Shown: in pieces, positions 9,605 through 27,583 of the stretch | How positions within the stretch are numbered: the stretch's first letter is position 1 | Layout of the letters: the number at the start of each line of letters is the position of its first letter | From: a virus | DNA length: 27,583 bases | Direction: 5' to 3' (one strand) | Virus record (IMG/VR): IMGVR_UViG_3300021961_009272 | Coordinates: 1 to 27,583 of that record | The notes under the pieces: generated by a model | Databases searched by the model: none | What the model was told of the DNA's origin: nothing | Seen by the model: only the letters and a program-made list of their open reading frames with translations | Position numbers and translations under genes: made by a program

Positions 9605-10405
9605 ATGGATTTAAATGCTATACGCGCAAAGCTGGATTCATTGAATAGCAATGGACAGCAAAGAGAGAAAACAGATTATTCCGAAATTTTTTGGAAACCT
9701 CAACTAGGTAAGCAGACGATTAGAATCGTACCTTCTACCTATGATCCTGCCTTCCCGTTTAAGGAATTAAAATTCCACTACGGAATTGGTAAGTATCCGA
9801 TGATTGCTTTATCAAACTTTGGTAAGCAGGATCCAATTGAAGAGTTCGTAAAAGAACTTAGAAAAACGAACGATAAAGACAACTGGTCATTATCTGGTAA
9901 AATTAACCCTAAGACCCGTATTTTTGCTCCTATTGTTGTTAGAGGAGAAGAAGATAAAGGAGTACGTCTATGGGGATTTGGTGTTACAATCTTTAAAGCA
10001 TTACTTGCTTTAGCAGAAGATGAAGATGTTGGTGATTACACCGATGTTATTAATGGATGGGATATGGTAGTAGAACAAAACCAAGGTAATCCCTACCCAG
10101 AAACAAGTGTTAGAATTAAACCTAAACAGACACCATTATCTGATAATAATGATTTAGTTGATAAGTGGTTGAAAGAACAACCTAATCCTGTTGATGTATT
10201 TACTCAATACGATTATGATTTCATTAAAAAACAACTACAAAACTACTTGAACCCTGGTAGTGAAGATGATACTACTACGGGTACAAACACAGATTCATCT
10301 TTGCCAGAAAGCTTAGGTCAACAAAAAACTGACTTTACTTTGGAATCAGCTACTGCTGGCAACCAAGACACAGTTAGTAAATTTGATGATCTATTTAACG
10401 AATAA
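9605..10405 (+). CDS. gp32-like single-stranded DNA-binding protein
   Basis: A 266-residue protein that coats ssDNA at the fork and in recombination. The N terminus (LNAIRAKLDSLNS) looks like the basic cooperativity segment of gp32. The central core begins FWKPQLGKQTIRIVPS and includes FHYGIGKYPMIALSNFG, DPIEEFVKEL and a RIFAPIVVRGEE-x6-LWGFG block, the usual pattern in marine T4-like phages. After a Gly/Thr/Ser linker it ends in the acidic tail FDDLFNE that in gp32 contacts replisome partners. There is no cysteine anywhere, so the zinc site of T4 gp32 is absent. It overlaps the recombinase gene by one base (TAATGG), matching their joint role in strand exchange. The symbol is left empty because only functional similarity is asserted. 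Confidence 0.85.
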   Translation: MDLNAIRAKLDSLNSNGQQREKTDYSEIFWKPQLGKQTIRIVPSTYDPAFPFKELKFHYGIGKYPMIALSNFGKQDPIEEFVKELRKTNDKDNWSLSGKINPKTRIFAPIVVRGEEDKGVRLWGFGVTIFKALLALAEDEDVGDYTDVINGWDMVVEQNQGNPYPETSVRIKPKQTPLSDNNDLVDKWLKEQPNPVDVFTQYDYDFIKKQLQNYLNPGSEDDTTTGTNTDSSLPESLGQQKTDFTLESATAGNQDTVSKFDDLFNE

Positions 10406-11475
10406 TGGCAAAAAAAACTGAAACTCAAGAAAAGGCTTCTGCTTTAGTGCAGAAGTCGTTTAATTTAGGGAATTTTAAGAAGAAAAAAGGGTATTCTAAT
10501 GCTTCTGTTAAATTTAAGGAGCAAAAATGGATACCTCTTTCTGAAGCTTTCCAAGATATTACTTCCTTACCCGGTATACCTACCGGACATATCACTCTAT
10601 TGCGTGGACATAGTGATACGGGCAAAACAACTGCCCTATTAGAAGCAGCGGTGAATGCTCAAAAAATGGGCATTCTCCCGGTCTTCATTATTACTGAGAT
10701 GAAATGGTCTTGGGAACATGCTAAAGAGATGGGATTACAGTTTGATGAAATAAAAGACGCAAATGGAACTGTAACTGACTACGAAGGACATTTCTTATAT
10801 GCTGATAGAGGTACACTAAATACCATTGAGGATGTGGCCGTTTATATTGCCGATCTTTTAGATGAGCAAGCAAAAGGTAATTTACCCTTTGATATGTGTT
10901 TCTTCTGGGACAGTATAGGTTCAGTACCCAGTGATTTATCAGTTAGATCAAATAAAAATAATAATGAGTGGAATGCTGGTGCTATGTCTACTCAATTTGG
11001 TAATAACTTAAATCAAAAAATTCTTCTATCAAGAAAGGAGAACTCTCCTTATACTAATACCATGGTAGCTATTAACAAAGTATGGACTCAAAAGCCAGAG
11101 TCGCCTATGGGTATGCCTAAACTACAGAATAAAGGTGGTATGTCGATGTGGTACGATGCTACTTTAGTGGTAACATTTGGCAATATTACTAACCCTGGTA
11201 CATCTAAGATTAAAGCTATCAAAAACGGTATGCAAGTAGAATTTGCTAAACGTACTAACGTACAGATAGAGAAGAACCACATTGGTGGAGTACAATCTAG
11301 AGGTAGAATAGTAATGACAGCTCACGGCTTCATTGCTGATGATAAAAGAGCAATTGATAAGTATAAAGATCAACATAAAGATCACTGGTTGAAACTTGTT
11401 GGTAGTTTAGATTTTGACCTAATTGAAGAAGGAGACCTAGAAGAAGATACAATTACTCCAAATCTTCTTGATTAG
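10405..11475 (+). CDS. uvsX: UvsX/RecA-type recombinase
   Basis: A 356-residue ATP-dependent strand-exchange protein. Walker A is GHSDTGKTT (residues 68-76), preceded by the typical GIPTGHITLLRG strand. A RecA-type Glu follows in VFIITEMKW. Walker B is MCFFWDSIGSVPSDLS, and the stretch around NNEWNAGAMSTQFGNNLN with the NKVWTQ segment matches RecA/UvsX sensor and loop regions. The tail is acidic (LIEEGDLEED). The protein is RecA-like in its Walker region, and shorter than T4 UvsX at about 390 residues. It overlaps the gp32-like gene by one base and ends in a TAGTG overlap with the nuclease gene, so the three are probably translationally coupled. Confidence 0.9.
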   Translation: MAKKTETQEKASALVQKSFNLGNFKKKKGYSNASVKFKEQKWIPLSEAFQDITSLPGIPTGHITLLRGHSDTGKTTALLEAAVNAQKMGILPVFIITEMKWSWEHAKEMGLQFDEIKDANGTVTDYEGHFLYADRGTLNTIEDVAVYIADLLDEQAKGNLPFDMCFFWDSIGSVPSDLSVRSNKNNNEWNAGAMSTQFGNNLNQKILLSRKENSPYTNTMVAINKVWTQKPESPMGMPKLQNKGGMSMWYDATLVVTFGNITNPGTSKIKAIKNGMQVEFAKRTNVQIEKNHIGGVQSRGRIVMTAHGFIADDKRAIDKYKDQHKDHWLKLVGSLDFDLIEEGDLEEDTITPNLLD

Positions 11476-12506
11476 TGGCATATAACGATATTTTACAGAA
11501 TTTAAAGGAGACCCCACCCCGAGCGTTAAATGATCATATTCTGATCATAGATGCTATGAATATGTTAATTCGTAGCTTCTCCCTGCTCAAAGCGATGAAT
11601 CCGACCGGCACCCATGTAGGAGGCTTGGTTGGGTTCCTTCGCTCCTTAGGGTATGTTACCCGTATATTTGATCCTACTAGAGTAGTGGTAATATGGGACG
11701 GAAAAGGTGGGTCTGCGAATAGAAAAAATATTGATCCAAATTATAAAGCACATCGTGCTACATCTCGAATAACGCATTGGGGTTTATACGACACCAAGGA
11801 ACAAGAGATGGAAGCATTAATTGGACAGTTATACCGTACCCAAGATTATTTAGATTGTCTACCCATACACCAGATGGTTATGGATAAGTTAGAAGCAGAC
11901 GATATTATAGCATATCTTGCAAAAAGAGCTTCTAATGCAGGTAAAAAAGTTACAATAGTATCTTCCGATAAGGATTTTCTTCAACTTATAGACCACTATA
12001 TTGAGGTATATGCTCCAGTAAAGAAAAAGACTTTCAATAAAGGTAATGTAAAAGAGGAACTTAAAGTAACTCCTAGAAACTACAATATAGTAAAAGCACT
12101 ACTTGGAGATAATTCTGATAATTTAAAAGGAATTAAAGGACTGGGAATCAAAACTATAGTCAAAGAGTTTCCAGGTTTGGCATCAAATTCTGATATGCAA
12201 TTAGGGTACGTATATAAACTTTGTGAACATAAATTAGACGAAAAAAAGATCTTTGCTAAAATAATACACGATTGGGATAGAGTGGAGACTAATTTTAAGT
12301 TGATGGATTTACATAACACAGCATTATCGGAAAACGAAATAGAGTATGTTGAAGACGTACTTAAAGAACCTATTCCAGATCTACAAACCGGTACGTTTTT
12401 ACATTATTTAGATTTGGATAAAATAGAAGGTATTACAAAAAATACAGAAATTTGGTTAGAAACATTTAGAGATTTAACTAAATATGGAAAAAGCAATAAT
12501 AGTTAG
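11475..12506 (+). CDS. 5'-3' exonuclease / RNase H, FEN-PIN family
   Basis: A 343-residue protein with a GTG start inside TAGTG, overlapping the recombinase stop by one base. It shows the 5' nuclease set: LIIDAMN (Asp26), VVIWDGKGG, the EADD cluster in DKLEADDIIAYL, SSDKDFLQL, and a helix-3-turn-helix DNA-binding element in LGDNSDNLKGIKGLGIKT. These are the acidic metal ligands and duplex-binding motif of T4 RNase H and the FEN family, which remove RNA primers from lagging-strand fragments. Length is close to T4 RNase H (305) with a modest C-terminal extension. Its end overlaps the next gene by 23 bases. Confidence 0.9.
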   Translation: MAYNDILQNLKETPPRALNDHILIIDAMNMLIRSFSLLKAMNPTGTHVGGLVGFLRSLGYVTRIFDPTRVVVIWDGKGGSANRKNIDPNYKAHRATSRITHWGLYDTKEQEMEALIGQLYRTQDYLDCLPIHQMVMDKLEADDIIAYLAKRASNAGKKVTIVSSDKDFLQLIDHYIEVYAPVKKKTFNKGNVKEELKVTPRNYNIVKALLGDNSDNLKGIKGLGIKTIVKEFPGLASNSDMQLGYVYKLCEHKLDEKKIFAKIIHDWDRVETNFKLMDLHNTALSENEIEYVEDVLKEPIPDLQTGTFLHYLDLDKIEGITKNTEIWLETFRDLTKYGKSNNS

Positions 12507-12900
12507 CGGGTATTTCAATCCGGTTCATAGAGGACATATAGAGCTGTTTATTAATGCCAAAGCCATAGCTGATAAACTTTTTGTAGTGGTTAATAATGAT
12601 CACCAAAGAGAATTAAAAGGGTCTAAACCATTTATGTTAGAGCATGAACGTGCTTTTATAGTTTCTAACTTAAAACAAGTAGACGGTGTATTCTTATCTA
12701 TAGATGAAGATCGAACAGTAATAGAAACTGTAAAATACATCTACGATACATACCCTCAGTATAAGTATTTATTTGGAAACGGAGGAGATCAAAACAATAA
12801 CAGCATTCCAGAAGCAAAAGTATGTACTGAGTTAGGAATAGAGTTAGTTGAAAATTTAGGTAAAAAAGTACAATCATCTTCTTGGTTATTAGAAGATTAA
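12484..12900 (+). CDS. HxGH nucleotidyltransferase (cytidylyl/adenylyltransferase-like)
   Basis: A 138-residue Rossmann-fold enzyme of the cytidylyltransferase superfamily. SGYFNPVHRGHIELF holds the nucleotide-binding HxGH (His15, His18); FVVVNNDHQRELKG follows; near residues 95-110 is LFGNGGDQNNNSIPEAKVC and the C terminus has LGKKVQSSSWLLE. The last two segments resemble heptose/glycerol-3-phosphate nucleotidyltransferases, where SSS plays the part of the ISSTxxR motif. The substrate is not determined. It overlaps the nuclease gene by 23 bases and sits within the replication block, so it may act on a sugar phosphate for glycosylation or as a DNA-modification precursor enzyme. A second, different HxGH enzyme lies at 19650-20009. 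Confidence 0.8.
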   Translation: MEKAIIVSGYFNPVHRGHIELFINAKAIADKLFVVVNNDHQRELKGSKPFMLEHERAFIVSNLKQVDGVFLSIDEDRTVIETVKYIYDTYPQYKYLFGNGGDQNNNSIPEAKVCTELGIELVENLGKKVQSSSWLLED

Positions 12901-12911
12901 ATCATATATTG
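12882..12911 (+). promoter_or_regulatory. Promoter-like TTG-N19-ATATATTG before the helicase
   Basis: TTG at 12882-12884, 19 bases, then ATATATTG at 12904-12911, which matches the TAnnTTG form of the Bacteroidota -7 box. Spacing is the same as at 9546, 17617 and 23361. The helicase ATG lies 22 bases past the box. Confidence 0.45.
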
Positions 12912-12932
12912 AGATATAATTAAAGGTTATAA

Positions 12933-14279
12933 ATGACGCTAAAAAGTTTACAACAATACGGGAAGGGGTTCCAATTGAAGGTTCTAGGATCTTTATTAAC
13001 AGATAAAGCATTTTTACTAAACGTTAGAGATGTTTTATATGACCATTATTTTGATTCGGATGCTCACAAATGGATTGTTAATGAAATAAAAGGATATTTT
13101 GACAAGTATCACAATACCGTTACTATGGATGTTCTAAAAGTAGAACTTCAAAAGGTAGAAAATGATATTTTAAAAGTAGCTCTTAAAGAAGAACTTAGAA
13201 ACTCCTATCAAGCATCACAAGATGACTTAGAGTATGTTCAAGAAGAGTTTTTAGGTTTTTGCAGAAATCAAGAAATGAAACACGCCATACTATCTTCAGC
13301 TGACTTACTTAAAGACGGTGATTTTGACGGTATCAGAAACATGGTAGAGAAAGCTATGAAGGCTGGTATGGATAAACATATTGGACATGAATATAATAAA
13401 GATATCGAAGCTCGTTATAGACAGAATTACCGTCCTACTATACCCACTCCTTGGGGTATACTTAATAGCGGAATACAAGGCGGATTCGGACCCGGTGATC
13501 TCACAATTGTTTTTGGTAACCCAGGTGGTGGTAAAAGTTGGGCTATGGTCGCTATTGCTGCTCATGCTGTTCAACTTGGGTATAAAGTTAACTACTATAC
13601 TTTGGAACTTGGAGAAGATTACGTTGGCAAAAGGTTTGACTGTTACTTTACGGGATACGGAATCGACGAAATAAATGATAAAAGAAAAGAAGTACAACAT
13701 ATTGTAGATAACCTTAAAGGTAAGCTTATCGTTAAGGAGTATGCTCCTAAAAATGCTTCTGTAAATACAATAAAATCTCATATTCAAAAATGTACTGATA
13801 TAGGGCATAAACCTGATTTAGTGGTTATTGATTATGTAGATTATTTAAAAGCTCCTTCTAAAGGTAGATTTGCAGAACGTAAAGATGAGATTGATGACGT
13901 TTTTATTGCAACTAAAGGGTTAGCCAAAGAGTTAAAGATTCCAATCTTAACACCATCACAGGTCAATAGAATGGGTGCTAAAGATAATGTAATTGAAGGT
14001 GATAAAGCGGCTGGAAGTTACGATAAGATGATGGTAGCTGATATATGTCTGTCATTATCAAGACAGAAAGAAGATAAAGTTCTAGGAACAGGGCGAGTGC
14101 ATGTTATGAAAAATAGATATGGTCAAGATGGTATGACGTATAATGTTACAATGGATACCAATAATGGGCATATAGAATTTTTAGAAAAAGCACTTCCGGG
14201 TGACTTACTTACTACTGATGACGGTAAACCAAAATTTACCCTCGATAGAGAAGTCATGCAAAAATTGAATTTTTCATAA
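12933..14279 (+). CDS. DnaB/gp41-type replicative helicase
   Basis: A 448-residue ring helicase. The N-terminal helical domain (residues 1 to about 165) leads through a linker into a RecA-like motor: Walker A in IVFGNPGGGKSWAMVA near residues 190-204, YYTLELGEDYVGKRF (the catalytic Glu motif), Walker B LVVIDYVDYLK, the ILTPSQVNRMG Gln motif, and an arginine-bearing MKNRYGQDG near residue 390. This is the SF4/DnaB order and spacing, and the length is close to T4 gp41 (475). It begins after its own promoter-like site and ends just before a terminator, so it may form a single-gene unit as well as part of a longer transcript. No primase is visible in this window. Confidence 0.9.
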   Translation: MTLKSLQQYGKGFQLKVLGSLLTDKAFLLNVRDVLYDHYFDSDAHKWIVNEIKGYFDKYHNTVTMDVLKVELQKVENDILKVALKEELRNSYQASQDDLEYVQEEFLGFCRNQEMKHAILSSADLLKDGDFDGIRNMVEKAMKAGMDKHIGHEYNKDIEARYRQNYRPTIPTPWGILNSGIQGGFGPGDLTIVFGNPGGGKSWAMVAIAAHAVQLGYKVNYYTLELGEDYVGKRFDCYFTGYGIDEINDKRKEVQHIVDNLKGKLIVKEYAPKNASVNTIKSHIQKCTDIGHKPDLVVIDYVDYLKAPSKGRFAERKDEIDDVFIATKGLAKELKIPILTPSQVNRMGAKDNVIEGDKAAGSYDKMMVADICLSLSRQKEDKVLGTGRVHVMKNRYGQDGMTYNVTMDTNNGHIEFLEKALPGDLLTTDDGKPKFTLDREVMQKLNFS

Positions 14280-19222: not shown

Positions 19223-19653
19223 TATACTGGTTTACAGGTCAACCAGGAGCTGGAAAAACAGTTTTAGCTAACATGCTAAGTGATAAACTACCTAGTGCTT
19301 TTAGAATAGACGGTGATGATATTAGAGCGTTGTTCTCTAATAATGATTATTCAATCAAAGGTAGAGTGGAAAACGTGGGTACTGCACAACGCATTGCCCA
19401 CTATCTCCACAATCAAGGACATGATGTTATTGTATCTTTAGTAGCTCCATATGTTGATCAACGAGAAGATTTTAAAAAACTTGTTGGTATAGAGAATATA
19501 GTAGAATTTTATATACATACTTCTGAACCTAGAGAAAGAGATCATTTTAAAGCAATTGCCTACAATCCTCCAACCTCAGATTACGTAGATATTGATACAA
19601 CAACTGATACACCGGAACAAAGTTTTGGAATAGTTAAAAAATGGGTGTTATGA
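19219..19653 (+). CDS. P-loop kinase, APS-kinase (CysC)-like
   Basis: A 144-residue kinase starting in the ATGA overlap with queC. Walker A is GQPGAGKT (residues 7-14); FRIDGDDIRALF matches the CysC LDGDxxR segment; RVENVGTAQRIAHYLHNQGHDVIVSLVAPYVDQRE matches the APS-kinase RxxNxxRIAxxA ... SxISPYxxxR block in spirit. The later CysC KGLYxKAR/GxxxxFTGID loop is only partly present (ATG-like ATKW is missing). It is shorter than CysC (about 200), so the acceptor may not be APS. It is followed by a nucleotidyltransferase and DUF2061, which together mimic the bacterial sulfate-activation neighbourhood. Kinase activity is likely; the substrate is unproven. Confidence 0.75.
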   Translation: MIYWFTGQPGAGKTVLANMLSDKLPSAFRIDGDDIRALFSNNDYSIKGRVENVGTAQRIAHYLHNQGHDVIVSLVAPYVDQREDFKKLVGIENIVEFYIHTSEPRERDHFKAIAYNPPTSDYVDIDTTTDTPEQSFGIVKKWVL

Positions 19654-20009
19654 GTAGTAAAAAATACAGTTTATTTATAGGAAGATGGCAACCGTGGCAT
19701 CCTGGTCATAGGTGGTTAATCGATCAGAGATTAAACGAAGGTAAAAACGTTTGTATAGCAATACGAGATGTTGAAACAGACGAAAATCAACCTTGGTCAG
19801 CCACAGAGATAAAATATGACTTAGAAATTAAGTTACAAGATTTAATAGAAGAAGGCAGAGTTAAAGTAATTAAAATACCGGATATCGAATCTGTTAATTA
19901 CGGAAGAGGTGTTGGATATGAAATTATAGAACATATACCTCCAACTGAAGTGGAAAAAATATCTGCTACAAAAATTAGAGAGCAGATGAGAAATGATGGT
20001 AAGTTATAA
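19650..20009 (+). CDS. HxGH nucleotidyltransferase (NMN/sulfurylase-like)
   Basis: A 119-residue protein; the ATG at 19650 gives an ATGA overlap with the kinase, preferred over the in-frame ATG at 19641. GRWQPWHPGHRWLI carries the HxGH nucleotide-binding motif, and ISATKIREQMR is the ISxTxIR motif that closes over the phosphates in NadM- and PanC-type adenylyltransferases. The fold is clear; the substrate is not. Known possibilities are NMN, pantetheine phosphate, a sugar phosphate, or sulfate in place of ATP sulfurylase. It is tightly coupled to the kinase and DUF2061, so all three probably share one substrate or pathway. Confidence 0.8.
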   Translation: MSSKKYSLFIGRWQPWHPGHRWLIDQRLNEGKNVCIAIRDVETDENQPWSATEIKYDLEIKLQDLIEEGRVKVIKIPDIESVNYGRGVGYEIIEHIPPTEVEKISATKIREQMRNDGKL

Positions 20010-20837: not shown

Positions 20838-21613
20838 TGAGATTTATAAGAGCATTTTGGGGAAATTTAGATTACGATAATGGTAAATATAGAAATGAAA
20901 TATTAAACATTGCTGAGACATCAAATCTAAATGATTATGTTTACGTTTGGGGTGAAGAAAATTATAAGTTTATTAAGTTACTAGGTTTTGATGCCGAACT
21001 AGTTAATAAAAATTCTACAGAATTTGGGGATGATTTTTTAAAGAATTCTGATACGTTTTTCTTTCATAAATTAGACGCTGTAAAGAGAGGTTGTGACAGA
21101 TTTGACTCTGTAGTGTTTTTAGACTGGGACACCAGACAACTTAAAGGTATAGATAATCTATTTTTTGATTTACTTTATAAACAAGATGAATATGTTCAAA
21201 TGCCCTTGTATGTCTATCCAAAAAATTATATTGAATTGGTACTAAATGAGTGGAAAGAAATACCACCTAAAGTAATAAAATATTTATATAAACAAGTAAG
21301 GGGGTTACAAAAACACCACTACAGTTGGAATGACAGCTGGGTAACTCCAAATGCTGGTTTTATTTACTGTAAAGATAGTAGTGTAATTGAAAATTTATTC
21401 CTAATTTGTAAAGAATATAATATAAACGTCGCTAGTGAAGAAATGTCAATGGTTGAATACTCTAAAAAGTACTGCCCCAGTATAGAACAGTATGTAAAAA
21501 GATTTGAACCTATTGTGTGCAGTGCAAAAAACAACTCACATTTTAATCAATCTGAGCTTAATAGAGAAATAGATCTACATATAACCAAAAACCTGTATTT
21601 TATACATGATTAA
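20837..21613 (+). CDS. Glycosyltransferase-like protein B
   Basis: A 258-residue soluble protein whose start overlaps the upstream stop (TAATG). Features: an N-terminal RFIRAFWGNLDYDNGKYRNE, a central DSVVFLDWDTRQL with a DxD-like DWD, a WNDSWVTPNAGFIYCK segment typical of the acceptor-side loop of GT-A enzymes, and EEMSMVEY. Together these support a nucleotide-sugar-dependent glycosyltransferase. The paired gene A could make a two-step sugar chain. It overlaps the carbamoyltransferase by 8 bases. Whether it modifies DNA bases or glycans cannot be told here. Confidence 0.55.
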   Translation: MRFIRAFWGNLDYDNGKYRNEILNIAETSNLNDYVYVWGEENYKFIKLLGFDAELVNKNSTEFGDDFLKNSDTFFFHKLDAVKRGCDRFDSVVFLDWDTRQLKGIDNLFFDLLYKQDEYVQMPLYVYPKNYIELVLNEWKEIPPKVIKYLYKQVRGLQKHHYSWNDSWVTPNAGFIYCKDSSVIENLFLICKEYNINVASEEMSMVEYSKKYCPSIEQYVKRFEPIVCSAKNNSHFNQSELNREIDLHITKNLYFIHD

Positions 21614-23246
21614 ATTAGGAATATCAGCATTTTATCACGATTCAGCCGCTTGTATTACAAACGGTAATATTGTTCTGGCTGCAGCTGAAGAAGAGAGATT
21701 TACTGGTATTAAACATGATAGTAGTTTTCCTATCAAAACTATAGAGTGGCTGTTACATTCTTTAGTACTAAAAATTACAGATATAGACGAAGTTCATTGG
21801 TATGAAAATCCCGAAACAAAAGACGATAGAGTTAAAACTATCTTTAATAAAAGACCGATTAAAACTTTTTTTCTTCGACAAAGGTATAAAAAAGACCGAT
21901 TGTATAACACTCCGGAAACTTTACTACAGAACCTTGGGTACACCGGAAAAATTATTTACCACGATCATCACTACTCTCATACTGCTTTCAGCTACTACAC
22001 TAGTCCTTACCGTAATGCAGCGATACTTACAATAGACGGTGTAGGAGAGTGGGAAACTACAACAATCTCTTTAGGTAGCGACAAGACAATCAAAAAGCTT
22101 ATCTCAATTGATTTTCCTAACTCTCTCGGTATGTTATATTCAACAATAACATCTTACTTAGGATTCAAACCCAATGAGGGAGAGTATAAAGTTATGGGTC
22201 TTGCACCGTACGGAGACCCTGAAATATATTTACAGAAACTACAAAAGACTTTATGTCATACAACCAACAAATACTATATTGACCAAAAATACTTTACCTG
22301 GGAATATTCAGATAGAATAATGTTTAACAAAAAATTATGCCAGTTACTAGACTTACCACCAAGACTACCAGAAGAGCCCTTGACGCAGGATCACAAGAAT
22401 TTAGCCGCAGCATTGCAAAAGCTGTACGAACAGGAATTTTTGAAATTAGTAGAAACAGCCAAAAATATTACAGGTTCGGAAAACTTATGTTTAGGAGGAG
22501 GATGCGCTTACAATGGCGTAGCTAATTCATTAGCATATAAGTATTTTAAATCTGTACATATTCCTTTTGCTCCTTCAGATGCAGGATCAGCAATAGGAGC
22601 TTGTTTAGATGGACATGCTAGTCCTCCACCTTACTTAGGTCCATATTTTCAAGACCACCAAGTTAAAAGAGTATTAGAGAATTATAAAGATAGAGTATTG
22701 GTATTTAAATTATCTGAGGATAAATTAATTCAAAAGGTAGCTCATATTTTAAGCTCTCAAAATATTGTTGCTTGGTTTCAAGACAGAATGGAGTTTGGTG
22801 CAAGAGCACTAGGAAATAGAAGTATTCTTGCTTCACCCGTTAAACCTCAAATGAGAGAAAAACTTAATCATGTAATTAAGAAGAGAGAAGGATTTAGACC
22901 TTTTGCTCCTTCAGTTACATTAGAAGATGCTGGTAAATTCTTTGATATTAAAGAACCTGTTCCTTTTATGAATCAAGTAGTAAAAGCTAAAGTTAAATTT
23001 TTACCTGCTGCTACCCATATAGATGGAACGTGTAGAGTACAGACAGTTAATTCTAAACAAAACCCTAAGTACTATAAACTATTAAAAGAGGTTGGAAGAT
23101 TAACTAATATACCTGTGCTACTAAATACATCTTTTAATCTTAAAGATGAAACAATAACAGTAACCCCTAAACAAGCTATAGAGAGATATTTGAACTCAAA
23201 TATAGATTTTTTAGTTATAAATAATTTTTTAATAAAACGAATATGA
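21606..23246 (+). CDS. O-carbamoyltransferase, NodU/TobZ family
   Basis: A 546-residue two-domain enzyme that transfers a carbamoyl group from carbamoyl phosphate to a hydroxyl. The Kae1-like N-terminal domain has GISAFYHDSAAC, EEERFTGIKH, the metal-binding HDHHYSHTAF (His119, His121, His122, His125), TIDGVGEWETT (Asp144) and GEYKVMGLAPYGD, then LGGGCAYNGVANS. The YrdC-like C-terminal domain has WFQDRMEFGARALGNRSIL, FRPFAPSV and VLLNTSFNLKDE. All expected motifs are present, so the enzyme should be active. Members act on Nod factor and aminoglycosides, and phage/metagenomic relatives have been reported (from memory) to carbamoylate 5-hydroxymethylcytosine in DNA. Next to two GT-like genes, a base or glycan cap is plausible. 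Confidence 0.92.
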   Translation: MIKLGISAFYHDSAACITNGNIVLAAAEEERFTGIKHDSSFPIKTIEWLLHSLVLKITDIDEVHWYENPETKDDRVKTIFNKRPIKTFFLRQRYKKDRLYNTPETLLQNLGYTGKIIYHDHHYSHTAFSYYTSPYRNAAILTIDGVGEWETTTISLGSDKTIKKLISIDFPNSLGMLYSTITSYLGFKPNEGEYKVMGLAPYGDPEIYLQKLQKTLCHTTNKYYIDQKYFTWEYSDRIMFNKKLCQLLDLPPRLPEEPLTQDHKNLAAALQKLYEQEFLKLVETAKNITGSENLCLGGGCAYNGVANSLAYKYFKSVHIPFAPSDAGSAIGACLDGHASPPPYLGPYFQDHQVKRVLENYKDRVLVFKLSEDKLIQKVAHILSSQNIVAWFQDRMEFGARALGNRSILASPVKPQMREKLNHVIKKREGFRPFAPSVTLEDAGKFFDIKEPVPFMNQVVKAKVKFLPAATHIDGTCRVQTVNSKQNPKYYKLLKEVGRLTNIPVLLNTSFNLKDETITVTPKQAIERYLNSNIDFLVINNFLIKRI

Positions 23247-23691: not shown

Positions 23692-24165
23692 ATGGGAACA
23701 TTTCAATCAACAAAAGTATTTGACGGATTCTCAACAGTATTTCGTCAATGGAGAGCAGAAGATACACATTGTAGATTTGTACACGGGTATGGTGTTTCAT
23801 TTAAACTATGGTTTGAAGGTCAATTAGATAATCGTAATTGGGTTTGGGACTTTGGCGGTATGAAAAGAGCTAAAGGTACAATCGATGGTAAGTCACCTAA
23901 AGAGTGGATGGACTATATGTTTGACCATACTTACATAGTTGCATCAGACGACCCTCATAAAGATAAATTTGAGAAGTTAGCAAGATATGGACTACTTCAA
24001 CTAAGAGAAGTACCTGCTACAGGGGCAGAAAGATTTGCACAATTTGTGTACGATAAGGTAAATCCCTTTATTATGCAGGAAACTAACGGAAGAGTTAGGG
24101 TAACAAAAGTAGAATTTAGAGAACACGATAAAAATAGCGCAATATATGAGCCTGGGCAGAATTGA
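23692..24165 (+). CDS. queD: QueD-like 6-carboxytetrahydropterin synthase
   Basis: A 157-residue T-fold enzyme of the queuosine/preQ0 pathway; QueD makes 6-carboxy-5,6,7,8-tetrahydropterin from dihydroneopterin triphosphate. Family motifs: THCRFVHGYGVSFKLWFEG, WVWDFGGMKRAKG, FDHTYIVASDD and a final VEFREHDKNSA with the conserved Glu. Cys27 and His31 are where E. coli has them, but the third position of CxxxHGH is Tyr33 (HGY), and I see no equivalent of the upstream His16 ligand (STVF). The zinc site is therefore altered. It overlaps queE by 20 bases. The substrate may still be the pterin; an acquired variant function cannot be excluded. Confidence 0.85.
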   Translation: MGTFQSTKVFDGFSTVFRQWRAEDTHCRFVHGYGVSFKLWFEGQLDNRNWVWDFGGMKRAKGTIDGKSPKEWMDYMFDHTYIVASDDPHKDKFEKLARYGLLQLREVPATGAERFAQFVYDKVNPFIMQETNGRVRVTKVEFREHDKNSAIYEPGQN

Positions 24166-24922
24166 AGATTATAATAAAAAATTACCTATAGTAGAACTTT
24201 ACACAGCAGTTCAATCAGAAGGTTCTCGTCAAGGTTATCCTACGATTGTTATTAGAACTACTGGATGTACTCACAGATGTTACTTTGGTGAAGGTGGATG
24301 GTGTGATTCATGGTATACAAGTATACATCCTGAAAAGGGTAGATATTCTTTTCAAGATATAATAGATATGTATGATGCAAATCCTCATATTTCAGAAATG
24401 ATGTTAACAGGAGGCTCTCCTACTATGCATCCAAAACTTGTTAATGAATTAACACATTTTGCAAATGAAAGAGGAATATTCATCACGATTGAGACAGAAG
24501 GATCGCATTTTCTTGCTACTGACTACCCTATAAATCTACTTAGTATTTCTCCTAAATTTAGTAATAGTATTCCCCATCTTGGTGTCACAACACCTCAAGG
24601 AGCTACTACAGACCAAAAAATGATAGATAAACATAATAGTTTAAGATTAAATAAAGAAGCTATAAAAAAATCTATTGAATATCACAGTGACTACCATATT
24701 AAACCTGTATTAGATAAAGATCTAACAATATATGGTGAAGTATGGAAGTTTTTAGAAGAATTGGAAATACCTAACGAAAAAGTATGGATGATGCCTGCAG
24801 GTGATACAAGAGAAGCTTTATTTGAGAGTTACCCTGTTGTTATGAACTTCTGTAGAGATAAAGGATATCGATTTACCGGTAGAGCTCATATTATGGCATT
24901 TGACACTCAAAGAGAAGTTTAA
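24146..24922 (+). CDS. queE: QueE-like 7-carboxy-7-deazaguanine synthase (radical SAM)
   Basis: A 258-residue radical-SAM enzyme that contracts the pterin to 7-carboxy-7-deazaguanine. N-terminal PIVELYTAVQSEGSRQGYP matches the family start. The [4Fe-4S] ligand motif here is C41-THR-C45-YFGEGGW-C53 followed by DSWYT, that is CX3CX7C instead of CX3CX2C; W-C-D-S-x-x-T aligns with WCDTxxT of ordinary QueE with a five-residue insertion. SAM-binding elements MLTGGSPTMHP, ITIETEGS and ISPKFSNS are present. The C-terminal part (MMPAGDTREAL) fits. The enzyme needs an electron source; a ferredoxin lies at 25530-25841 in the same operon. Confidence 0.88.
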   Translation: MSLGRIEDYNKKLPIVELYTAVQSEGSRQGYPTIVIRTTGCTHRCYFGEGGWCDSWYTSIHPEKGRYSFQDIIDMYDANPHISEMMLTGGSPTMHPKLVNELTHFANERGIFITIETEGSHFLATDYPINLLSISPKFSNSIPHLGVTTPQGATTDQKMIDKHNSLRLNKEAIKKSIEYHSDYHIKPVLDKDLTIYGEVWKFLEELEIPNEKVWMMPAGDTREALFESYPVVMNFCRDKGYRFTGRAHIMAFDTQREV

Positions 24923-25083: not shown

Positions 25084-25282
25084 AGTAATTAAAATGCTTC
25101 GAAAAACCTTTGAAGCTCAAAGAGAAAGAGCGTTAATGACATTTGAGTTATTGACCGAAAATCCTGCAGGTATTGGGGATCACTCAACAGAAGATTTTTA
25201 TAAAAATGCAGAAGAAGCAGCAAGAGCATTAGCAGAAGCTGACGATGTTTTAGATACACTGTCAAGATACTTCCCAGAATGA
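25070..25282 (+). CDS. Conserved-looking small phage protein (70 aa)
   Basis: A 70-residue, largely helical protein: RVIKMLRKTFEAQRERA, then LLTENPAGIGDHSTEDFYKNAEEAA and a final ALAEADDVLDTLSRYFPE. Similar small proteins are, as I recall, common in T4-like marine phages. It overlaps both neighbours (14 bases upstream, 4 bases ATGA downstream), which argues for real expression. No catalytic motif is seen and function is unknown. Confidence 0.65.
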   Translation: MAQYRVIKMLRKTFEAQRERALMTFELLTENPAGIGDHSTEDFYKNAEEAARALAEADDVLDTLSRYFPE

Positions 25283-25533
25283 GATTACCAATAATAAAAC
25301 ATTTAAGTAATTTCATAGAAAAAAACGATCAAGATTTTATCACCGAAACTTTAGAGGTGTTAGAAGATCTTATTGAAGCAAGGGGGATCAAAGATGAAGA
25401 GCTTGATGTTATTGGTGAACTTATATCCAACCTTGAAGGTGCTTTAGAAGTTCAAAAACTTATTAGTAATGGTATGACTCAAAAAGAAGCATTGAATACT
25501 TTTATGAAAAGAGTAAGTAACATAGGTCAATGA
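25279..25533 (+). CDS. Small helical protein (84 aa), unknown
   Basis: An 84-residue, acidic, all-helical protein beginning in an ATGA overlap. It is rich in Glu and Ile/Leu (IIKHLSNFIEKNDQDFITE, then EDLIEARGIKDEELDVIGEL), suggesting coiled-coil or protein-interaction helices. The last residues overlap the ferredoxin start by 4 bases. I do not recognise it. Confidence 0.6.
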   Translation: MRLPIIKHLSNFIEKNDQDFITETLEVLEDLIEARGIKDEELDVIGELISNLEGALEVQKLISNGMTQKEALNTFMKRVSNIGQ

Positions 25534-25841
25534 GTTACATAATAGGTAAACCATGTGAAGGTACTTGTGATACTGCTTGCGTTGCTGCCTGTCCTGTTGA
25601 CTGTATTAACGGACCTATAGAAATCGATGGATTAGGTCAAGAAGTTAACGGTATGCAAATAGGCGAAAACCATATGCTTTACATAAACCCAGAGGAGTGT
25701 ATAGATTGTGGTGCCTGCCTCCCGGAATGTCCAGTTGAAGCTATTTATATTAGCGAAGAGGATGCTATTGCAAAAGATGGCACCGATGAATACGTAAAAC
25801 GAAATTATAAATTTTATGATCTCGAATTTAAAGGTTTGTAA
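25530..25841 (+). CDS. Dicluster bacterial-type ferredoxin
   Basis: A 103-residue electron carrier. The first cluster ligands are in KPCEGTCDTACVAACPVDCI (C9, C17, C21, C25, with an extra C13); the second is ECIDCGACLPECPVEAI (CxxCxxCxxxCP). The 30-residue Gly/Asn-rich link between them is longer than in simple 8Fe-8S ferredoxins. The acidic C terminus (EEDAIAKDGTDEYVK) is typical. It is the last gene of the queD-queE block and could reduce the radical-SAM cluster of QueE or other redox enzymes in the cell. Ferredoxins also appear in marine phages for other redox needs. It overlaps the next gene by 26 bases. Confidence 0.88.
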   Translation: MSYIIGKPCEGTCDTACVAACPVDCINGPIEIDGLGQEVNGMQIGENHMLYINPEECIDCGACLPECPVEAIYISEEDAIAKDGTDEYVKRNYKFYDLEFKGL

Positions 25842-26439
25842 CCTTTCTTTTTTAGTTACATTACTAGTTGCTAGTTGTTCTAAACCGGAAAATATCGTAG
25901 CACAGCAGCTACGAGAGCAAGTAGAAGTAACCACATCAATCTTTACTGTTCTTTACTCAGAAACAAAAGAACAACCAATCACCCTAACATATAAATCTTC
26001 TAATCGTCCTAAAAACGTCGATAGAGGTTCTATGAACTTTTATACCGAAGACAATTACCATACTTCCGACAATAAAGACTACTACAGAAATGTATGGGAT
26101 AAAGGGCATTTAGCACCAGCTGCTACTTTCTCTGATTCTATGGAGAATCTTAAACAAACTTTTTCATTCCTTAACTGTGCTCTTCAAGACCAATATCTCA
26201 ATAGAGGTGAATGGAGATTACTAGAGGAAAAAGAAAGAGATTGGGATGACATAGAAGAGCTACAGATCACTATTGATATAGAATTTTCAGATTCTATTTT
26301 ACCTACCGGGGCTACAATCCCATCAAAATTTATAAAACACATTAAATTCCTGAATTCTAATGTATACAAGTGTTACGACTTTCCTAATGAAAAGCCAACC
26401 AAAGATTGGCAAGAATATCAAGTACAGCATAGTCATTAA
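25816..26439 (+). CDS. Secreted lipoprotein-type DNA/RNA non-specific nuclease
   Basis: A 207-residue protein with a lipoprotein signal: basic start NLKV, hydrophobic SFLVTLLVA and lipobox VASC, with Cys21 as the acylated residue. The mature part is the NUC1/NucA fold: DKGH (residues 95-98; family DRGH with the general-base His98) in WDKGHLAPAATFSD, then TFSFLNCALQDQYLNRGEW, where Asn120 and Asn129 and the Gln-rich segment match the metal-binding Asn and PQ...N.GxW of the family. The substitution Arg to Lys in DRGH is tolerated in some members. The protein would be anchored to the periplasmic face of a membrane or outer surface. It overlaps the ferredoxin by 26 bases, so it belongs to the phage operon. 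A role in host DNA degradation or superinfection exclusion is possible. Confidence 0.85.
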   Translation: MISNLKVCNLSFLVTLLVASCSKPENIVAQQLREQVEVTTSIFTVLYSETKEQPITLTYKSSNRPKNVDRGSMNFYTEDNYHTSDNKDYYRNVWDKGHLAPAATFSDSMENLKQTFSFLNCALQDQYLNRGEWRLLEEKERDWDDIEELQITIDIEFSDSILPTGATIPSKFIKHIKFLNSNVYKCYDFPNEKPTKDWQEYQVQHSH

Positions 26440-26559
26440 TAACAAAAATAAACAACATTCTGTTGGCAGTTCGAAATCAATTCCATATATTATTGATAGC
26501 CGATACTGGACAACTGATGTTGCCTAAAGGTTATATATTTGTTTAACTTAATTTTAATT
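26440..26559. other. Intergenic region before the TonB receptor: short inverted repeats
   Basis: A 120-base gap with no coding sequence. It holds CAACA (26453-26457) pairing with TGTTG (26461-26465) over a 3-base loop, and ATCAAT (26476-26481) pairing with ATTGAT (26492-26497) over a 10-base loop. Neither has a U-tract, so I do not call a terminator. A B12-riboswitch or tRNA was considered and rejected. Confidence 0.4.
26534..26541 (+). promoter_or_regulatory. TATATTTG, Bacteroidota -7 box before the TonB receptor
   Basis: TATATTTG at 26534-26541 is an exact match to the TAnnTTTG -7 element of Bacteroidota. It lies 18 bases before the receptor start. No TTG is found at the matching upstream distance, so the -33 element is missing or weak. 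It differs from the five phage-type sites, which end TATATTA/T/G. Confidence 0.4.
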
Positions 26560-27583
26560 ATGAGAAATCTCGTTGCAATACTGTTAATATTTTTAGCAGT
26601 AGGAGCTTATGCTCAAGAAACTATCGTGTCTAAGGATTCTATCCTTGTGACAAATTTGCAAGAAGTTGTAGTATCTTCAAGAGTAATTGATGTCGCAATA
26701 GAAAGAAAGACACCAGTTGCCCTGAGTACAATTTCTGCACAAGAGGTAGCTTTAAAAGTAGGAAACTTAGAGTTTCCAGAAGTAATGAATCGCACCCCTG
26801 GTGTTTACGTTACTAAACAAGGAGGAGGATACGGAGACTCACGTATTAACCTAAGAGGATTTGACCAAAGAAACACATCTTTCCTTATCAACGGACAACC
26901 CGTTAATGATATGGAAAGTGGATGGGTTTACTGGTCTAACTGGCAAGGGTTAACAGACGTAGCTTCTGGTATTCAGATCCAGAGAGGTTTAGGTGCCTCA
27001 AGATTAGCAGTTCCTTCAGTTGGTGGAACTGTTTCTATTTTCACTAAAAGTGCCGAACTTGCAGAAGGTGGTTCATTAAACCAAATGATTGGTAATGATG
27101 GATACATTAAAACTACTGCAATTTACAACACTGGTAAGAACGATAAAGGTTGGGCTACTTCTGTGCTGTTAACTAAATGGTCAGGAGATGGTTATATTTA
27201 CGGTACAGCTGGAGAAGGTTGGACATATTTTACAGCTATCGGATACGCACCAGAGGGTTCAGCACATAGTCTGAACCTTTCTATTTTAGGAGCAGGTCAA
27301 TGGCATCATCAGAGAAGTTCTTGGGTATCTATTAGAGATTACCAAAACTTTGGAGAAGAAGGTATTGACAGAAGATGGAATACAGATAGTGGATTCTTAA
27401 ATGGAGAAGAATATAACATCAGAAGAAACTTCTATAACAAACCATTAGCTACTTTCAACTGGGATTGGGATATCAATTCTACTACTCAGTTAAACACTTC
27501 ATTCTATGCATCAGCTGGACGTGGTGGAGGAACAGGAGCTCGTGGTAATAACTTTAGAAGTGCTGCTATTGATTTTTGGCCAT
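26560..27583 (+). CDS. TonB-dependent receptor, 3' end cut off by the window
   Basis: ATG at 26560 is followed by 341 open codons running to the window end with no stop. A signal peptide (MRNLVAILLIFLAVGAYAQ, cleavage after AYA) precedes a TonB-box-like NLQEVVVSSR and the plug domain: PEVMNRTPGVYVTKQGGG, RINLRGFDQRNTSFLING, GWVYWSNWQG, IQIQRGLGASRLAVPSVGG and TVSIFTKS. Beta-barrel strands follow. The N-terminal carboxypeptidase-like domain common in large Bacteroidota receptors is absent. These outer-membrane transporters import iron chelates, vitamins or glycans. Sampled lines here have 38-47% G+C against about 27-35% in sampled phage lines, so it may be host-derived. Either a phage-carried receptor or host sequence next to the phage in the assembly would explain it. 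Confidence 0.93.
   Translation, partial: MRNLVAILLIFLAVGAYAQETIVSKDSILVTNLQEVVVSSRVIDVAIERKTPVALSTISAQEVALKVGNLEFPEVMNRTPGVYVTKQGGGYGDSRINLRGFDQRNTSFLINGQPVNDMESGWVYWSNWQGLTDVASGIQIQRGLGASRLAVPSVGGTVSIFTKSAELAEGGSLNQMIGNDGYIKTTAIYNTGKNDKGWATSVLLTKWSGDGYIYGTAGEGWTYFTAIGYAPEGSAHSLNLSILGAGQWHHQRSSWVSIRDYQNFGEEGIDRRWNTDSGFLNGEEYNIRRNFYNKPLATFNWDWDINSTTQLNTSFYASAGRGGGTGARGNNFRSAAIDFWP

Follow-up and report, generated by a model that had tools for sequence, protein, structure and literature searches.

The locus described here raises the question of how the gene of a TonB-dependent receptor (TBDR) comes to lie at the end of a phage contig, whether it belongs to the phage at all and which role it could have in the infected cell. 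The window, by which the whole analysed stretch of DNA is meant, is a 27.6-kb phage fragment from IMG/VR, whose nearest isolate as judged by UvsX (71.6% identity) is Flavobacterium phage immuto (vB_FspM_immuto, genus Immutovirus, 160 kb). The label T4-like, given in a preliminary description, is fair for its replication genes, and the other phage genes located 5' of the receptor encode a baseplate wedge protein, a class I ribonucleotide reductase and QueD- and QueE-like enzymes. As described earlier, no integrase is seen in the window, nor is any tRNA.

The receptor gene and its surroundings in the window

The features used in the following are:

10405..14279, + strand: UvsX-like recombinase (compared with that of immuto), exonuclease, small nucleotidyltransferase-like ORF and DnaB-like helicase (phage replication)
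14386..17087, + strand: genes of the beta and alpha subunits of class I ribonucleotide reductase, which in other phages are followed by the TBDR at once or at a short distance
23692..24165, + strand: QueD-like 6-pyruvoyl-tetrahydropterin synthase
24146..24922, + strand: QueE-like radical SAM enzyme (7-deazaguanine pathway)
25279..25533, + strand: DUF6952 protein, part of the upstream gene order
25530..25841, + strand: 4Fe-4S ferredoxin, in the conserved upstream gene order
25816..26439, + strand: Endonuclease_NS (EndoG/NUC1 type), predicted lipoprotein with an LLVASC lipobox (PF01223, 9.8e-20; EndoG alignment; lipobox compared with homologues)
26529..26546, + strand: leader motif GGTTATATATTTGTTTAA, just upstream of the TBDR
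26560..27582, + strand: first 341 codons of the TBDR, encoding a signal peptide, the putative TonB box LQEVVVSS, the plug and the beginning of the barrel, where the contig stops

The receptor reading frame begins with an ATG at 26560 and contains no stop before the contig end, with about 341 of about 824 residues present. The presence of a receptor with signal peptide and plug on the same strand as the phage operon, 120 bases 3' of the stop of the preceding gene (26439), is confirmed, as the plug scores 48.1 bits with PF07715 (1.8e-12; cut-off 23.9) and the signal peptide can be read as MRNLVAILLIFLAVGAYAQ. The preceding gene at 25816-26439, left unnamed previously, encodes the Endonuclease_NS lipoprotein, which retains the D[R/K]GH motif as WDKGHLAPA. 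Elsewhere in the window, a Nol/NodU-like carbamoyltransferase gene (21606-23246) lies near those of QueC, QueD and QueE and may serve DNA or surface modification, while two small nucleotidyltransferase-like ORFs recognized by eye (12484-12900 and 19641-20009) are possibly involved in NAD or cofactor metabolism.

Base composition had been taken as a sign of host origin. The G+C content of the TBDR gene (39.2%) is indeed high as compared to 28-39% in the other genes of the window, but its third-position G+C of 24.6% falls inside the phage range of 17-36%, and hence the excess is due to amino-acid content and not to recent import. The host-type -7 box proved to be a weak sign as well, since the sequence TATATTTG fits TAnnTTTG, a motif found 21 times in the window, and no -33 TTG is present at the spacing tested, leaving a two-hexamer host promoter before the TBDR unsupported. 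Across viral loci totalling 1.04 Mb, a strict pattern of the leader motif was found ten times, on each occasion just 5' of a TBDR, and a relaxed pattern gave 47 matches in viral loci, of which about two thirds are at the TBDR. The strict pattern was absent from 1.16 Mb of host loci, a zero that carries little weight because the pattern was derived from these very upstream regions and the host loci have a higher G+C content. The leader motif is largely specific to the phage copies of the TBDR, and it may be a promoter or leader travelling with the phage gene.

Copies of the receptor gene in other viral contigs

A search for the receptor in relatives of the phage and in host genomes found it in both. 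The scan of viral contigs yielded 113 relatives, the best 80 of which share 69-85% identity with it, so that no fewer than 80 further viral contigs contain the same TBDR. Phage-only families, defined as those found in viral loci only, flank the gene on both sides in 52 of the 80 loci, on one side in 25 (many of them at a contig end) and on neither side in three. Genes neighbouring the TBDR in the window recur in the same order beside it in contigs from many separate metagenomes. Near the lineage of the window two main settings prevail, one after the QueE-ferredoxin-nuclease genes as in the window and the other directly or closely after nrdA (13 loci), while in other phages the TBDR gene adjoins an IMPDH-like gene, GroES or clamp-loader genes.

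These observations bear on the possibility, raised previously, of an assembly junction, or else of host contamination of viral contigs. The window contig does end inside the TBDR gene, a search for its extension by the exact end pattern gave no match, and marine Bacteroidota are rich in TBDRs. However, the gene order, with phage genes on either side of the receptor, is the same in contigs from many separate metagenomes, viral and host TBDR loci have almost no other families in common, and terminase and TBDR are found on one contig in four large records including one of 191 kb. Syntenic copies in independent contigs thus refute an assembly junction, and an artefact of either kind is hardly credible. 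Plug domains occur exactly once in 23 of 24 viral records and twice in the remaining one.

Repeated gain and optional presence

On a tree of 144 rows, phage and host copies interleave, and the phage and host labels require 13 changes, at least eight of which are forced by well-supported branches; a second tree of 77 rows requires 11 changes, eight of them forced. This indicates that the TBDR was gained by phages repeatedly, although a part of the changes may represent losses or transfers back. Host origin, as suggested earlier, is therefore supported in the long run, whereas a recent capture is not supported, given the presence of the TBDR in dozens of phage contigs, its phage-like codon third positions and purifying selection. 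One of the rows counted as host is a Crocinitomicaceae MAG contig (L116, NZGF01000066.1), whose TBDR is identical to a phage copy (L021) and whose neighbours belong to phage families; the contig probably represents phage DNA that ended up in a bacterial MAG.

With the QueE-like gene as an anchor for finding relatives with and without the TBDR, the relatives retrieved frequently lacked it. Empty sites at the same place are present in L232, L161, L235 and the isolate immuto. The order in L232 is QueE, o70, ferredoxin, Endonuclease_NS, phosphoribosyltransferase and FolE, and in L163 (the same contig as L015) it is QueE, ferredoxin, Endonuclease_NS, TBDR, phosphoribosyltransferase and FolE. Absence from the same place in relatives, the isolate included, marks the TBDR as an optional cassette, and it combines the features by which auxiliary genes are recognized: a host-derived gene inside a phage genome, under selection and absent from near relatives.

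The full-length receptor: fold, class and selection

Full-length phage copies comprise 824-932 amino acids. The homologue L002 (824 amino acids) contains plug and barrel (PF00593), and an N-terminal CarboxypepD_reg-like domain is present in a class of about 900 amino acids and absent from the shorter class. The terminal residue is the aromatic F in each of nine aligned copies, and LEEVVVSS, a candidate TonB box picked by eye, is conserved before the plug. Pairwise dN/dS values among phage copies are 0.05-0.16. Conservation is usually higher in the plug than in the barrel, with the pair L023-L037 showing the reverse. Low dN/dS together with a conserved plug agrees with a functional transporter and speaks against a passive decoy. 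Comparison of these sequences shows the phage TBDR as a gene that is complete in relatives, under purifying selection, in syntenic phage positions and gained several times from Bacteroidota, and it is probably a working importer of some kind. Among the three roles proposed in the preliminary description, a change in nutrient uptake is the best supported.

Neither the sequence nor the fold reveals a ligand. An AF2 model (mean pLDDT 73.8, with the plug poorly modelled) has a barrel that matches TBDR structures in general, such as FhuA, PqqU and FecA, and a fold search was uninformative as to the ligand since many TBDRs match. None of the NCBIfam receptor-class models reaches its cut-off, with scores of 79 against 324 bits for haem, 65 against 224 for siderophores and 47 against 600 for B12. 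Import of iron, haem or cobalamin in support of phage metalloenzymes, for instance class I ribonucleotide reductase and ferredoxin, would be a common TBDR role and would suit the position after nrdA in 13 loci or downstream of ferredoxin in others. However, these scores lie far under the cut-offs and no siderophore or haem genes are among the annotated neighbours, which makes this reading quite improbable. For the SusC/RagA model, L002 gave no match and L010 scored 89.6 bits against a cut-off of 368, and a SusD-like partner (PF12771) was absent from 30 viral records.

Exported nucleases and other neighbours in phages

In one group of phages the TBDR gene is preceded by that of the exported Endonuclease_NS and followed first by that of a secreted S1/P1 nuclease and then by the genes of a three-helix membrane protein and a thymidylate-kinase-like protein. 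The Endonuclease_NS carries a lipobox in ten of 11 phages with the TBDR and in none of eight without it (Fisher 1.2e-4, a p value that ignores kinship); the regular expression used for scoring missed L007, L031 and the host locus L113, which were scored by eye. An exported Endonuclease_NS is also found in relatives without the TBDR.

The S1/P1 nuclease is known from relatives, as the window ends before the position where it could appear. It is present in seven of 28 viral records, always within two genes of the TBDR, and is recognized by PF02265 (2e-60), readable signal peptides, an N-terminal WGxxGHR and an alignment over its length with SmNuc1 (8qjl, 1.2e-29). When used as a query it retrieved 18 loci, with the TBDR in 15 of 17 after exclusion of the cut-off locus L250; several of these contigs were already among the best 80 above. 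No match to the S1/P1 nuclease was found among 50,697 phage records.

The kinase encoded 3' in many relatives matches AAA_28 and the thymidylate kinase family phrog_2107. Between nuclease and kinase lies a conserved membrane protein of 72-81 amino acids, present in 17 viral loci (for example L002:5893-6111), for which AF2 predicts three helices; no Pfam, PDB-sequence or fold match identified the 72-residue protein as a PnuC- or SemiSWEET-like carrier, and PnuC itself was absent from 30 viral records of these phages. The SNase neighbours were rejected as exported nucleases, lacking a signal peptide. A gene for AhpC/1-Cys peroxiredoxin belongs to the same operon in two relatives of the window phage (L002:423-1058 and L007:5829-6464).

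Host loci with the receptor

A counterpart of the phage arrangement exists in Candidatus Arcticimaribacter. In a MAG of this genus (L113) the TBDR is followed by S1/P1, a CNT nucleoside transporter (PF07662), a PF03641 protein and Endonuclease_NS; in a second genome (L304) TBDR and S1/P1 are arranged in the same way together with a CNT-like gene, the latter recognized by eye from its similarity to that of L113, and in a third (L095) TBDR and S1/P1 are followed by the contig end. Phage S1/P1 proteins and those of L113 and L095 form one clade with support of 99, apart from other Flavobacteriaceae S1/P1 proteins that have no adjoining TBDR, and the best match to a phage S1/P1 in the whole order is again that of L113. 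As in the phages, a TBDR of the same family is directly followed by S1/P1 in L113 and L304; unlike in the phages, the locus is chromosomal and the CNT transporter takes the place of the three-helix protein and kinase.

This nuclease is present in three of 19 genomes of the genus, and the host link of TBDR, S1/P1 and CNT was found in this one genus only, in three genomes of which one is cut short, which counts against a nucleic-acid substrate. Since none of the 30 best Flavobacteriaceae S1/P1 loci (L266-L295, about 1.5 kb on each side) has this TBDR beside it, the pairing is unsupported as a general trait of the family. A link of the TBDR to EEP nuclease and DUF5689 genes in hosts was rejected, as those genes flank a second, distant TBDR.

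Most host homologues, by contrast with the nucleic-acid reading, adjoin pgi and cell-envelope genes (annotated by eye), and eight copies (L083, L086, L088, L091, L097-L099 and L101) adjoin SusC/SusD and/or GH16-like genes, likewise by eye. The combination of SusC/SusD and GH16-like genes is typical of glucan loci. From these host contexts, the TBDR could import glucan or another substrate, and in the phages it would then be an auxiliary gene for uptake of an oligosaccharide such as beta-glucan or of another carbon source. TBDRs of marine megaphages have been read in that way (PMC9723777). However, nucleases and enzymes of nucleotide metabolism are what surrounds the TBDR in phages, with no glycoside hydrolase adjoining it in the annotated phage loci, and the SusD-like partner (by PF12771) is missing from the 30 records, so we consider a carbon importer unlikely.

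Proposed role in the infected cell

The explanation that we prefer, as plausible rather than probable, is that the TBDR is a working importer which supplies the infected cell, most likely with products of nucleic-acid degradation, and forms an optional auxiliary uptake cassette. During infection the phage would add the TBDR to the host outer membrane, where it would be energized by the host TonB-ExbBD. In one phage group, the Endonuclease_NS lipoprotein and the S1/P1 nuclease would cut nucleic acids outside the cell or in the periplasm, the TBDR would take in the products, and the thymidylate-kinase-like protein, ribonucleotide reductase and IMPDH-like enzyme could turn them into nucleotides for phage DNA. 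The nucleic-acid-derived substrate is the least certain step, drawn from the phage neighbours and the host pair, and outside the S1/P1 group a secreted nuclease adjoining the TBDR is missing in most of the phages with this receptor. A bolder version, which we regard as doubtful, is that a group of marine Bacteroidota phages possesses an almost complete pathway that leads from extracellular nucleic acid to nucleotides inside the cell, comprising secreted nucleases and others anchored in the outer membrane, a TonB-driven importer, a putative three-helix inner-membrane carrier and a nucleotide kinase, so that DNA synthesis would be fed from outside and not by host DNA alone.

The same genes could instead control superinfection, with exported nucleases degrading the incoming DNA of rivals and the TBDR acting as a decoy or as a replacement of the host receptor. 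TBDRs do serve as phage receptors (FhuA of T5), the exclusion lipoprotein Llp binds FhuA (8a60, among the fold matches), the exported Endonuclease_NS is found in relatives without the TBDR too, and these phages have 7-deazaguanine DNA-modification genes. However, a decoy could do without conservation of the plug, whereas in this receptor, which is under purifying selection, no part is usually better conserved, S1/P1 is paired with the TBDR and, in the host locus, with a nucleoside transporter, and PADLOC gave no match. Blocking of rivals, as proposed earlier, has thus gained no positive evidence and is improbable.

The auxiliary genes known from phages concern, for example, photosynthesis, nucleotide synthesis and phosphate uptake; to our knowledge, outer-membrane importers have hardly been described among them. 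The presence in many uncultured marine Bacteroidota phages of a complete, selectively maintained TBDR gene, often beside those of exported nucleases, suggests that these phages cause infected cells to take up nutrients from outside, possibly nucleic-acid breakdown products. Given repeated gain and purifying selection in many marine phages, infected Bacteroidota may change their uptake from seawater, and if the nuclease link is functional, phage replication would have a source of phosphorus and nucleotides other than the host genome, and one that is open to testing. As phages also enter via TBDRs, a phage-encoded one could in addition change which other phages infect.

Relation to known systems

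SusC/SusD importers share the TBDR fold, and the CarboxypepD_reg_2 domain with the phage copies of about 900 amino acids; they differ in that the phages have no PF12771 partner and score far under the SusC/RagA cut-off. Phage immuto resembles the window phage in the order QueD-QueE ... phosphoribosyltransferase-FolE and in an exported NUC1 nuclease, and differs in lacking the TBDR, the S1/P1 nuclease and a lipobox on its nuclease. No report of a phage TBDR together with nucleases was found in the open-access PMC literature, which is not proof of novelty.

The marine megaphages Mar_Mega_1 and LR745206 carry a TBDR, for which increased nutrient uptake in infection and SusC-like carbohydrate uptake were proposed (Michniewski 2021, PMC9723777). 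Like the TBDR described here it is phage-encoded with a proposed uptake role, but the phages here form a different group with smaller genomes and several separate gains, and the LR745206 receptor is distant from the window family, with about 31-33% identity over the aligned part. Whereas nucleases accompany the receptor in the phages here, the TBDR in LR745206.1 (L296:6962-10478) is directly followed by PnuC (PF04973, 7e-48) and a NadR-like nucleotidyltransferase/kinase, and this locus looks like an operon for import of an NAD precursor and not for carbohydrate uptake as published.
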